A DNA stretch of 64,000 nt, taken from positions 3,844,001 to 3,908,000 of the forward strand of contig NZ_CP052766.1 in NCBI RefSeq assembly GCF_002499975.2, read 5' to 3'. Under the pieces are notes generated by a model. It saw nothing but the letters and a program-made list of their open reading frames with translations, did no database searches and was not told the DNA's origin. Source of the stretch: Alteromonas pelagimontana. Lineage in GTDB: Bacteria; Pseudomonadota; Gammaproteobacteria; Enterobacterales; Alteromonadaceae. Positions 19,971 through 58,456 of this stretch are shown in pieces; position 1 is the first letter of the stretch, and every line of letters begins with the position of its first letter. Position numbers and translations under genes: made by a program.

Positions 19971-20624
19971 TTACTGAGGATATCGCGCTTTTAATCCTTG
20001 ATAGACACTCTCACTGTAATTATCGTCATGAATATTAAGCGCAGATAATACTTCCACCAGATGCTGATTATCTTCCTGCCCATTCCATACTTTACAATAA
20101 GTGCCCGCTTTGTAACCGTGATCCTGGCGGAAAAAGTTCAAGACATTCTTGCCTACATATTGGCGATATAATTCTTCACTATCCATATCGCATTCTGTAA
20201 CAATGTGCATAAACAAGGGAACGGAGAAGCGTTTTGCGGCACATAATCCTGCCATTAGCTCAAGATTATCCAAAAGATTCATGTTTTCAGGCAAATACTC
20301 CTGCCCATCAAACTGAACGGTAGTCTTTGCTTGAGCCAGCTGAGAAGCAAGGGCGGTGGCTGTAGCAGCAATATCGCCCTGATGCTGAATAATGCTGTCA
20401 GAAAGCGCAAAGTGCCATATATCTACCAGTTCCATCTGAAGCTGGGGCAAATCTTTATTTTGTGCCTTCCACCATTTCCAGCCATGATGTTCAATAGCTT
20501 CGACTGATTCCACCATCGCTGCCCGCAAATAGGCGTAGCCTGCAGTTAACCATTTGGGGTTAACTTTTGTGTTCATTTTATTTTGCAGTGCCAGCATAGT
20601 GGCCAATTGTTGTTGGGTAAGCAT
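19971..20624 (-). CDS. Dimeric all-alpha dUTPase-like nucleotide pyrophosphohydrolase
   Basis: The 217-residue helical protein fits the dimeric dUTP diphosphatase group of the all-alpha NTP pyrophosphohydrolases. The metal-binding pattern is visible as ESVEAIEHHGWKWWK (about 41-55) and ELVDIWHFALSD (about 66-77), with a later KNVLNFFRQDHGYKAGTY segment typical of the group. These enzymes hydrolyse dUTP to dUMP and pyrophosphate, limiting uracil in DNA; some accept other nucleotides. It is unrelated to the trimeric Dut of E. coli. The gene is divergent from recC across a 547-bp region rich in regulatory features. Substrate preference is inferred from the family. Confidence 0.82.
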   Translation of the reverse strand: MLTQQQLATMLALQNKMNTKVNPKWLTAGYAYLRAAMVESVEAIEHHGWKWWKAQNKDLPQLQMELVDIWHFALSDSIIQHQGDIAATATALASQLAQAKTTVQFDGQEYLPENMNLLDNLELMAGLCAAKRFSVPLFMHIVTECDMDSEELYRQYVGKNVLNFFRQDHGYKAGTYCKVWNGQEDNQHLVEVLSALNIHDDNYSESVYQGLKARYPQ

Positions 20625-20724
20625 ATTCGAATCCTGTTTTCGAGATACGCCGATTGTATCGGATGAAAAGTCGTTAAGGAAGCTAACAAAAATCTACGGA
20701 GGCTCATAAGAAGGATGGGCATTC

Positions 20725-20742
20725 TTGGTGCGCCTGCACCAA
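20725..20742. promoter_or_regulatory. Perfect inverted repeat, candidate enhancer-binding-protein site
   Basis: TTGGTGC (20725-20731) and GCACCAA (20736-20742) form a perfect 7-bp inverted repeat about 75-90 bp upstream of the -24 element at 20817. That is where sigma-54 activators usually bind. It also lies upstream of the divergent dUTPase gene. The binding protein is unknown. Confidence 0.45.
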
Positions 20743-20775
20743 AATAAAAAACGCGCTTTCCTCAGAGAAAGCGCG
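20741..20775 (-). terminator. Strong minus-strand terminator without an obvious gene
   Basis: CGCGCTTTC (20752-20760) and GAAAGCGCG (20767-20775) make a 9-bp stem. On the minus strand it is followed by TTTTTT-A-TTTT. No annotated minus-strand gene ends here, so it would stop antisense transcription heading into the dUTPase promoter. Confidence 0.7.
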
Positions 20776-20815
20776 CTTCTTGTGTAACGTTTTGAATTTT
20801 ATCGTTATTCTTTAT

Positions 20816-20831
20816 TGGCACGAACGGTGCT
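20816..20831 (+). promoter_or_regulatory. Sigma-54 (RpoN) promoter candidate
   Basis: TTGGCACGAACGGTGCT fits the -24/-12 consensus TGGCACG-N4-TTGCW with one mismatch. GG at 20817-20818 and GC at 20829-20830 are separated by exactly ten bases. It points towards a folded RNA ending in a strong terminator. The predicted start is near 20842. Confidence 0.65.
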
Positions 20832-20841
20832 TTAACAATAT

Positions 20842-20973
20842 TGTTAACTGCGCTTCATACTAGCGCTAACTTGGAGAGGTGCCAGGCAACGCCGAAACCA
20901 GGTTGTTAGTATGCGGCCCGTAACCTTGCCCGCACAGATTTTTCGTGTCCTGAGATCTGTGTGGGTTTTTTTT
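20842..20973 (+). ncRNA. Candidate sigma-54-dependent small RNA (~130 nt)
   Basis: Downstream of the RpoN-type promoter the transcript folds into nested stems. CATACTA (20856-20862) pairs with TAGTATG (20907-20913). AACTTGG (20868-20874) pairs with CCAGGTT (20898-20904) with one G-U pair. A terminator CCCGCACAGAT/ATCTGTGTGGG (20929-20939/20955-20965) is followed by eight T. Both G-U pairs become mismatches on the other strand, which favours the plus strand. No ORF of note is inside. It does not resemble Qrr, GlmY/GlmZ, Spot 42, 6S or 4.5S RNA as I remember them. recC begins about 200 bases further on. Confidence 0.6.
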
Positions 20974-21171
20974 CTCGGCATTAATATACATCACCGCTCA
21001 ATTATTCGCCAAACTTTATTTTTCTATTATCTGACATTCTATTGTCGCTTACTGACCATTTGCTCGGGCAATAAACTACAGATGGTGATTTCCTTTTAAC
21101 GCCATGAATTATCCAGCGGCATGTGGAGGAAATTCTACAGATGCCGTAACATGCTCTAAAGCATCCTCAAA

Positions 21172-24100
21172 ATGTGGTTTATTTTGCTCGCACTATACCC
21201 CTCAAACAAACTGGAACATCTCAGTTATTTACTGGGTGCGTTGTTAGAACAACAACCCGGTCATATTTTTAGTCCGCAAACCATTCTGGTGGAAAATCCA
21301 GGTATGCAGCATTGGCTGAACATGGAGTTGGCCCAGCAAAAAGGGATTGCAATGAATCTGGCATTTCCGCTGCCAACCCGGTTTATGTGGAATACTGCCC
21401 GCGCGGTGTTGGGAAAAGATGTGGTCCCTCAACAATCGGCATATCGGCGTGAAGTGCTGGTTTGGCGAATTGAAAATATCCTGCGCAGCGATACATTTTG
21501 CCACTCACCAGAAACCGAAAAAGCGTGCCGCTATTGGCAGCATCTGGCTGATGCTGAGGAGCAGGGGGTGCAGCGTTTGCAATTCGCTACTGCGTTGGCT
21601 GACATTTTTGAGCAATATTTATTGTATCGGCCTGATTGGCTATTTTCCTGGGAGCAGGGTGAACTTGTATTAAATAGTGAAGATGAAATCTGGCAATCAC
21701 TGATATGGCGCCACCTGGTTGCCCAAAGCCCGCTTCACCCGGCGCGCCTGCACAAGATGGCGATTGATGCGTTGCAGCAAGATTGTGAGATAACGTTGCC
21801 AGCCAGAGTCATTGCGTTTGCTATTAATACCATGGCGCCTCAACTGGTGCAGTTTTTCGATGCACTGGCAAAATACACTGATATTCATATTTTTCATTTA
21901 AACCCAAGCGTTAACTATTGGGGGGATGTGAAAAGCGACAGAGAACGGGCAAGGCTGTTGCGTCAGCAGGGCGTAACGCAGTGGCAATTAGATCAACAGG
22001 ATAATCCGCTGCTTGCAAACCTAGGCAAACAAGGGCGCGATCTTTTTAATCTTCTCACCAGCGTTGATACCTTTGAAATCAGCGGCTTTGACGTTCCTGC
22101 CCAGCAAGGTAATACCGTGCCCACAGGTTATTTACATGCGGTGCAGCAAGATATTTTGCAGGCGACAGCGCCGTCGCGCACGGTACCCGTATCACAAGAA
22201 GATAACAGTATTATTATTGCCAGAGCGCATAGTTCGTTAAGGGAAGTTCAGGGCTTACATGACCAACTCCTTCATTTAATGAACAACAACAGTGGAATTA
22301 AACCTGCTGATGTGGTGGTAATGTGCCCCGCTATTGAGGATTATGCTCCGCTCATTGATGCGGTTTTCCACCGCATTGGCACACCGTCTACGGATAATTC
22401 CGGCGCACCACGGGTCCCCTGTTCCATTGCCGATCGTTCACCACTGGATTCAGAACCTTTAATTGCCTCCTTCATCAGTTTGCTCAGCCTTCCGGATAGC
22501 CGATTCGAGGTGAGCAAAATTATGGATTATCTGCGTCTTGATGCGCTTCAGGCCAAGTTTTCTCTTACCAGTGACGATCTTGATTCGATGAGCTATTGGC
22601 TACAACAGGCCAAGGTTCACTGGGGGGTAGATAGTCACCATAAAAGCGTGATTACACACGGTGCTACAGACTCCTTTTTACATTCCTGGTCATGGGGACT
22701 GAAGCGTTTATTGATGGGGATGGTGTTTGCTGATGAAGAGAAAATTTCTCATGATATTCTTACTGTGCCGGACGTGGAAGGTCAGCAAACAGTGGTGCTG
22801 GGGAAGCTGATTCACTTACTGGATCAGCTTGGCCATTATTGCACACAGCTAAAAAAGACCAGAACGCCTGAGCAATGGCGTGAATTTTTAACAGAATTAC
22901 GAGAAGCCTGTTTTTCGCCATTACCAGAACAACAGGATACCTGGGAAACCTTAGAAAGGGCTACTGCGGATTTAGAGCATCACTGCCGCGAAGCTGGTTT
23001 CGTCGGCGACCTGTCACTTCGTCAGGTTCGAGAGGTTCTGCTTAAACGCTTTTCTTCACCAGATGTAGGCAATCATTTTATGACGGGGCAGGTAACATTC
23101 TGTTCAATGCTGCCAATGCGCAGTATTCCGTTCAAAGTAGTATGCATTTTAGGATTAAATGATGGGGAATTTCCACGCCAGTCTCAACCTATCAGCATTG
23201 ACTTGATGCCTAAAAATGCAGCCAGAATTGGTGACCGCTCGCGGCGGATGGAAGACCGCTATCTGTTTCTGGAAGCGCTGATTTCTGCACGGGATTATCT
23301 TTACCTGAGCTATCAGGGAAACAGTGAAAAAGATAACAGTGAGCGCCAGCCGAGTTTAGTATTGGCTGAATTGCTTGACGTGCTTGAGCGAGGCTATGGG
23401 TTCGACAGCAAAATTCAGCAGCGACAATTGCCACTACACCCTTTTAGCGCCGGCAATTTTTCTGCGGATTTTATCAGCTTCGAGCCGGGCTGGTACCGCC
23501 TTGCTGAATCGATTTCAACTGCCAGTAAGCCGGCCCGGACGACCTTTGCTCCACTGGAAGAACCACGGCTGCCAGAGACAGTTTCTGTTCAGCAGATTGC
23601 TCGTTGCCTGCGCCATCCGCTGCAATATTTTGCAAATCAGGTTTTAGGTGTGCGTCTGGATAATCAACAGCCAGATTTAAGTGATGCAGAACCCTTTGCC
23701 GAAAGCCCTTTAATTCGATATCAGGTAATGGATGCCTTAGTAAATACCTGTGTTGAGCAGAACAATACCGCTACGGTACTGACGCGCTATCAGCTTAGCG
23801 GAGAGCTGCCGGCAACGCCATTAACTGCTACCTTGCTGGAACGTTGGAATACTGCATCTGAAGCGTTAGGTGAGGCGCTGGCGTTAACTCACAGCGATGC
23901 TATTGTTGCCAGTTGGCAAGGACACCAATGTACTGTTGAGGCAAAGGCTTGGACTGATGGCCTGACTCTCAAGCATATGCATGTAGGTAAGCAGCACGTT
24001 CAGCGGTTGCTGTCTCAGTTTTTAACCATGCTGGTATTTAATGCCAGCGGCCGCGCGCTTCCCTTGGAAGCTTATTACTTAAGTTGGAAAAGTGACAAAT

Positions 24101-48892: not shown

Positions 48893-48969
<77 letters not shown>

Positions 48970-49045: not shown

Positions 49046-49120
<75 letters not shown>

Positions 49121-58200: not shown

Positions 58201-58363
58201 ACTTTTCAGCGAGAGCGGGCTTCGTTCTTTGAACGGCGGCATAGCGCTTTGCTAGTTTAGCAAACCGTACCACGATAGGTGGTAGTACCCATGCGTTTGC
58301 AACTGTCTCTTGACAGTGATGGGTTCAGATTTGTATAAAAGCCCCGCTAGTCCGGGGCTTTTT
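58201..58363 (+). ncRNA. Structured leader RNA with terminator before rimP (attenuator or small RNA)
   Basis: About 160 bases fold into successive hairpins: TTTGCTA/TAGCAAA (58248-58264), ACCAC/GGTGGT around 58269-58283, and CCCAT...ACTGTC-TCTT-GACAGT...ATGGG (58288-58323). A strong terminator AAAGCCCCG/CGGGGCTTT (58338-58361) with a T tract closes it. It contains no tRNA, although metY often sits here in other gammaproteobacteria. The operon must read through this terminator or use another promoter. Rfam lists a rimP leader in gammaproteobacteria, but I could not compare sequences. Confidence 0.55.
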
Positions 58364-58419
58364 GTTGTACTTGAATCGGAATTTATGCTGACTGCAAGAG
58401 TCTTAGTAAAAGGTAGTTT

Positions 58420-58438
58420 GGGCTTTAAGCCCTTTTTT
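58420..58438 (+). terminator. Second short hairpin with T tract directly before the rimP ribosome site
   Basis: GGGC-TTTAA-GCCC is followed by six T, seven bases before the GGAGG of rimP. The 4-bp stem is weak; with the first terminator it would form a tandem attenuator. Confidence 0.45.
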
Positions 58439-58456
58439 CGTTTTTGGAGGTAAGGA

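Follow-up and report, generated by a model that had tools for sequence, protein, structure and literature searches.

A conserved sigma-54-type small-RNA gene next to recC in Alteromonas, with apparent kinship to nitrate leader RNAs

The 547-nt gap between the dUTPase gene and recC of Alteromonas pelagimontana raises the question of whether it holds a small-RNA gene of its own and, if so, what controls that gene and how its RNA might act. A preliminary description, made from the letters of the 64,000-nt stretch that was analyzed (hereafter the window), had proposed a sigma-54-dependent small RNA upstream of recC. Analysis of the window together with its relatives identified a sigma-54-type small-RNA gene at 20816-20973 (+) in this gap, and the proposal is supported: the predicted structured RNA, its promoter and its terminator are all kept in relatives. 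The RNA is predicted to be ~130 nt long (20843-20973, +), with its start placed by promoter spacing and by the onset of conservation at GTTA, and it scores 129 bits with R1, a model built from recC-side RNAs only.

A conserved structured RNA in the dUTPase-recC gap

At the DNA level the RNA locus was matched in 22 of 23 same-genus relatives (best E values 1.4e-8 to 2.5e-34), one of which (G015) matches over the terminator only, and in none of 16 relatives from other genera. When the gap was compared by BLAST with 21 relatives, the bins at 20825-20984 were covered in 17 to 21 of them and bins elsewhere in 3 at most, such that conservation begins with the bin at 20825, ends with that at 20965-20984, and is poor between the RNA and recC. 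In 65 of 67 loci the RNA is followed by recC in the same orientation, at a variable distance of 74-820 nt from the terminator loop; the recC match is absent from L052 and L072, where the sequence examined ends near the RNA. As in a sigma-54-dependent sRNA gene, RNA structure and terminator are conserved and there is no conserved downstream unit. A pattern scan of genome contigs, which demands the conserved words and so gives their distribution but says nothing on conservation, found 39 stretches in Alteromonas, Salinimonas, Aestuariibacter, Marisediminitalea and metagenome bins. A mechanically called 62-aa ORF (20911-21099) overlaps the 3' part of the RNA.

The predicted fold of the segment has an energy of -51.4 kcal/mol (z -4.08), and none of 200 shuffles was as stable. 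Covariation was assessed in an alignment of 22 sequences, comprising the window and 21 relatives, from which the diverged locus L023 of G015 was omitted given its unalignable 5' part. The fold consists of a nested long stem at 20853-20916 (+), in which 20853-20864 pairs with 20905-20916 and 20868-20881 with 20890-20904 (26 pairs, two-sided changes in 21), and an intrinsic terminator at 20928-20973 (+), in which 20928-20942 pairs with 20952-20966 (15 pairs, two-sided changes in 8) ahead of eight T at 20966-20973. The terminator is the best-paired helix, with 98.5% of cells pairing. Overall, 29 of 41 pairs had two-sided changes, double-change cells numbered 126 versus 34.6 in shuffles, and the covariation score was 0.434 versus 0.203 for shuffled alignments and 0.05-0.11 when the structure was slid. 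The nested stems and terminator read from the single sequence are borne out by this covariation. The plus-strand orientation, which had been argued from two G-U pairs, also stands, as 93.0% of cells pair on the plus strand versus 77.1% on the minus strand in these 22 sequences; the count of two does not, since G-U pairs occupy 154 of 902 cells on the plus strand versus 10 on the minus strand.

Unlike the stems, the loops are invariant in sequence. The apical loop CCAGGCAA (20882-20889, +) caps the long stem, and GCCAGGCAAC is present in all 22 rows, as is TTTTCGTGTCCTGAG of the terminator-loop element TTTTTCGTGTCCTGAG (20939-20954, +), whose core GTGTCC at 20945-20950 is also found in nitrate leaders. 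Between the two helices lies the linker CCCGTAACCTT (20917-20927, +), whose UAAC could form pairs with GUUA at the 5' end (20843-20846), both being invariant. A kissing interaction of CAGG in the apical loop with CCUG in the terminator loop was considered and rejected: both are invariant in the alignment, but L101 breaks the pairing. In L023, at the same dUTPase-recC place, the 5' part of the RNA is unrelated and the terminator keeps CGTGTCCTGA.

Qrr, GlmY and GlmZ are sigma-54-dependent sRNAs which the preliminary description had judged by eye not to match, and in agreement with this none of them was among the seven sub-threshold Rfam matches obtained up to E = 10 over 20650-21180. No family reached its gathering score at the locus in whole-window or locus scans, and scans of eight relatives gave no accepted family for the recC-side RNA, so that the covariance comparison with Rfam that had been proposed yields no family that fits. 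Sub-threshold matches to Trp_leader (E 0.38, minus strand), trpB (0.6), NsiR1 (2.3; 0.27 in L161) and C0465 (0.82, in L023) were set aside as chance. We found no published report of this RNA in the literature searched, and no link emerged between it and two A. macleodii transcripts of unassigned identity, 424 and 309 nt long, in the section that describes them (PMC4223743).

Promoter and upstream sites

The putative -24/-12 promoter TGGCACGAACGGTGC lies at 20816-20830 (+), and its assignment is based on sequence match and on conservation. As had been claimed, TGGCACGAACGGTGCT at 20816-20831 has the GG-N10-GC spacing and one mismatch to TGGCACGNNNNTTGCW; the E. coli consensus is given as TGGCAC-nn-TT-n-TTGC in the portion of PMC8743547 consulted. 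Taken alone the match is not beyond chance, as the window contains 10 sites with up to two mismatches versus 13.6 expected, two of the 10 having one mismatch. It gains weight from conservation across loci: when 61 loci were reduced to 44 distinct ones, a suitably spaced promoter was found ahead of the RNA start in all 44, using a script that required GG, tolerated one mismatch per half and was confined to the 80 nt preceding the RNA core. No locus departs from TGGCA or from the TG of the -12 element (44/44), and 39 have the full TGC. Conservation of stems and promoter in relatives, which had been named as a check, was thus observed for both, with strong covariation in the stems.

Upstream of the promoter are sites that go beyond the preliminary description, as do the invariant terminator loop and the kinship with nitrate leaders considered below. 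An IHF-like site, TAACGTTTTGAAT, is found at 20785-20797, fitting the pattern YAA-N4-TTGAWW taken from the IHF consensus. Among the 44 loci this pattern is exact in 25, has one mismatch in 14 and two in five (raw counts), and in 36 the end of the best match is 17-18 nt upstream of the -24 element. Farther upstream is an NtrC-type enhancer (20716-20741), made up of TGGTGCGCCTGCACCA at 20726-20741, which is two outward TGCACCA-type half-sites, and, at the spacing of an NtrC box, a weak left half with its TG at 20716-20717. In 34 of the 44 distinct loci the palindrome TGGTGCRYYTGCACCA is intact or has a single mismatch and is situated 72-75 nt upstream of the -24 element; in the other 10 it is weaker or absent. 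To its left, those 34 loci have G at -9 without exception, T at -10 in 28 and C at -8 in 24; at -10, -9 and -8 the window reads T, G and G. The palindrome and invariant G match the spacing of the NtrC box, TGCACCAnnnTGGTGCA, as given in PMC8743547, and the second half-site faces outward, unlike that of the textbook box. The sole exact GCACCA-N3-TGGTGC of this genome precedes glnA. Based on the half-sites, the spacing and this exact box in the same genome, NtrC is the best candidate activator, and we infer that NtrC and IHF act at the promoter. A strong terminator-like hairpin on the minus strand, AAGAAGCGCGCTTTCTCTGAGGAAAGCGCGTTTTTT (20746-20781), lies between the enhancer and the IHF-like site, in a stretch covered in at most 2-3 of 21 relatives.

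Relationship to nitrate leaders

Model R1, which favours leaders carrying the loop, matched 27 of 196 family genomes in six of 52 genera. Three matches in another genus (L099-L101) are orthologues adjoining recC, and with strict filters R1 found no recC-side RNA in the remaining genera. Eighteen further loci (L102-L119), also of other genera, are related RNAs at places other than recC. Seven of these precede a gene for an NrtA-like periplasmic protein (L102, L104, L110 and L117, tested with PF13379; L108, L109 and L114, called by a shared N-terminal motif), five precede a NarK-type transporter gene (L111 by TIGR00886; L112, L115 and L116 by MFS_1; L113 by motif), one precedes moaA, and two have an Alginate_exp porin gene downstream. 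The latter two, L118 and L119, also have an NrtA/NasS-like gene upstream (PF13379 tested in L119), an arrangement that suggests a porin linked to nitrate. The promoter TGG[CT]A-N7-TG[CT] is present in 17 of the 18 (it was not found for L118), and an ANTAR-type hexaloop hairpin, GGCA..G..GCC, whose 3' side runs into the terminator, is present in 14, being absent from L105-L107 and L119. GTGTCC occurs near the 3' end in 17 of the 18, a proportion biased by discovery with R1, which favours sequences of this sort; a second model, R2, found four leader-type loci in other genera (L153-L156) that are without it. In L105-L107 the loop persists though the hexaloop hairpin is lost. These three sigma-54 leader-type RNAs face a convergent gene (an amidohydrolase gene in L105), with no nitrate gene seen within 1.5 kb on either side, and each may be a leader that was orphaned and then retained as a free RNA.

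The recC-side RNA has in common with the sigma-54/ANTAR, NalA-like nitrate leaders of other Alteromonadaceae a 3' module, consisting of GGCAA and the terminator loop CGUGUCC, as well as the word AGGCAA, and the nitrate leaders likewise carry TGCACCA half-sites. R1 and R2 cross-detect the two kinds of RNA. We infer common descent from these likenesses.

R2 was built from 13 leader-type sequences plus L105 and also detects leaders without the loop. Within the genus it detected RNAs in 55 of 59 genomes, 39 of its matches being additional to the first in a genome, whereas across the order 13 of 394 genomes matched, all of one family. The second match in the window genome precedes nirB, ~10 kb from the gene for a NIT+ANTAR protein. 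Among the 25 of the 39 extra matches that were examined, all have the hexaloop hairpin and 24 are without GTGTCC, the exception (L120) being before a NarK-like gene. The next gene starts like nirB in 19 of a set of 20 genus leaders and is NrtA-like in L269. Conversely, the hexaloop hairpin was found in none of 22 recC-side RNAs, directly downstream of which there is recC and no nitrate-assimilation gene. An ANTAR protein was detected in 46 of the 59 genus genomes. Of the 13 without one, nine keep the full RNA adjoining recC (L012, L015, L016, L020, L022 and L235-L238), one has the diverged form that keeps CGTGTCCTGA (L023) and three gave no match; of the 17 genomes with a single R2 match, all except G231, G248, G255 and G261 were examined at recC. 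Given its retention in nine of 13 genomes lacking a detected ANTAR protein, the recC-side RNA does not need the antiterminator, and the distributions of loop and ANTAR protein indicate that the GUGUCC loop survives in the recC-side RNA where the genus leader has lost it.

Candidate mode of action and neighbouring features

We consider it reasonably probable that the recC-side RNA is an NtrC-controlled, trans-acting sRNA of nitrogen limitation that is related to the nitrate leader. By this account, the stand-alone gene in the dUTPase-recC gap would be switched on when nitrogen is short, with phosphorylated NtrC binding the TGCACCA half-sites, IHF bending the DNA and sigma-54 polymerase then making an RNA of ~130 nt that ends at 20973. 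The product would be kin, through its 3' module and promoter, to the NalA-like leaders that attenuate nitrate-assimilation operons, and would base-pair in trans via the exposed terminator loop (GUGUCC), the loop CCAGGCAA, or both. Action in trans is suggested as most likely by the lack of an ANTAR hexaloop hairpin and of a constant tie to any gene downstream; other possible routes are pairing by way of the linker or CCAGGCAA and the binding of a protein. NrsZ of Pseudomonas is an NtrC/sigma-54 nitrogen-regulated sRNA with the same promoter logic, a likeness of general description only.

In the parts of the sources consulted, NalA is a sigma-54/NtrC-dependent nirBD leader of Pseudomonas aeruginosa read by NasT (PMC12830290, PMC3973561), and it is like the recC-side RNA in its -24/-12 promoter and short RNA ending at an intrinsic terminator, and would be like it in NtrC-type control. 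The Alteromonadaceae nitrate leaders, which have the 3' module of the recC-side RNA, are likened to NalA by that description and not by sequence. Unlike NalA, the recC-side RNA precedes recC, has no hexaloop hairpin overlapping the terminator, and is kept in genomes without detected ANTAR proteins. The ANTAR hexaloop rule calls for a hairpin with A1 and G4 (PMC8164766, as excerpted), and this hairpin overlaps the terminator (PMC5821096, likewise).

Several other explanations were weighed against the trans-acting, NtrC-controlled sRNA. The RNA might be a decoy that captures the NasR/NasT antiterminator in the way that EutX/Rli55 captures EutV; PMC5821096 describes EutX/Rli55 as an sRNA sponge that sequesters its ANTAR protein, and it too is a free RNA related to an ANTAR attenuator. 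Kinship with ANTAR-type leaders, the shared word AGGCAA and the NIT+ANTAR protein encoded in this genome are in keeping with such a role, which is nonetheless improbable: the recC-side RNAs, unlike EutX/Rli55, have no hexaloop hairpin (0/22, versus 14/18 leader-type loci and 25/25 genus leaders examined), and nine of the 13 genomes of the genus in which no ANTAR protein was detected keep the full RNA. We consider it just as improbable that the RNA is a cis leader or attenuator, with sigma-54 transcription passing through the terminator into recC under some condition. The position of recC downstream on the same strand (65/67 loci) would fit, but the distance to it varies from 74 to 820 nt, the intervening stretch is not conserved and the terminator is the best-paired helix of the RNA (98.5% of cells).

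The remaining alternative retains a sigma-54-dependent sRNA and differs in its activator, which would be an enhancer-binding protein other than NtrC answering another signal. The half-sites of TGGTGCRYYTGCACCA, turned outward relative to the NtrC box, speak for it, and it is unlikely rather than negligible. The half-site itself is of the NtrC kind, no exception occurs to the G at -9 (34/34) in NtrC-box spacing, nitrate leaders carry TGCACCA half-sites as well, and the LuxO site is TTGCAWWWTGCAA in the portion of PMC10162802 available. Standing against the preferred reading, that of an NtrC-controlled sRNA acting in trans, are this outward second half-site, the 10 of 44 loci in which the palindrome is weaker or absent, and target searches that gave no target.

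Those searches covered CAGGACACG, TCAGGACACGAAA, AGGACACG and AGGACAC. The 9-mer CAGGACACG has seven occurrences in the genome (10 for the reversed control), one being the RNA gene and none coinciding with a plausible start of a gene in sense orientation. In both genomes searched, AGGACAC ahead of ATG is less frequent than the reversed control (18 versus 32 in G000, 21 versus 29 in G001), and among the places with AGGACAC-N2-8-ATG that were examined (15 of 18 in G000, 18 of 21 in G001) no gene common to both was seen; gene-like starts, named by eye, included maeB-, accA- and rseC-like ones in G000 and astD-like in G001. With one mismatch TCAGGACACGAAA is found at six places, one of them the RNA gene itself and the other five not in a clear upstream region of a gene start. 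AGGACACG-N1-7-ATG occurs at 19 places in four genomes, with no real gene start in G000 and gene-like starts (again named by eye) in G004 (a 501-aa open frame, carB-like), G009 (ftsE-like) and G001.

The recC-side RNA looks like an NtrC/sigma-54 sRNA and lacks what marks an ANTAR leader. The interest of the locus lies in the parts that leader and sRNA appear to have exchanged. We tentatively raise the possibility, which we regard as doubtful, that the terminator loop of the nitrate attenuator is itself trans-acting, that in some Alteromonadaceae the ended leader doubles as a nitrogen-stress sRNA, and that the two jobs were split in Alteromonas. There, the leader would keep antitermination only, with an ordinary loop, and a separate NtrC/sigma-54 gene beside recC would keep the GUGUCC seed. 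If the trans-acting sRNA is real, nitrogen control in this widespread marine genus would gain a post-transcriptional arm, and the locus would offer a testable case of a cis-acting leader and a free sRNA exchanging parts in evolution. That the loop is found in the leader of some genera and in the free RNA of Alteromonas makes trans action of ended leaders directly testable.

The neighbourhood has features of its own. The dUTPase gene of the window (19971-20624, -) encodes dUTPase_2 (PF08761) and that at the same place in L099 (825-1307, -) a trimeric-type dUTPase (PF00692); two unrelated enzymes with the same function have thus been exchanged at a locus that is otherwise conserved. Elsewhere in the window are a rimP leader (RF01770, 50.5 bits; 58302-58439, +) and two tRNA genes, at 48893-48966 and 49046-49119.
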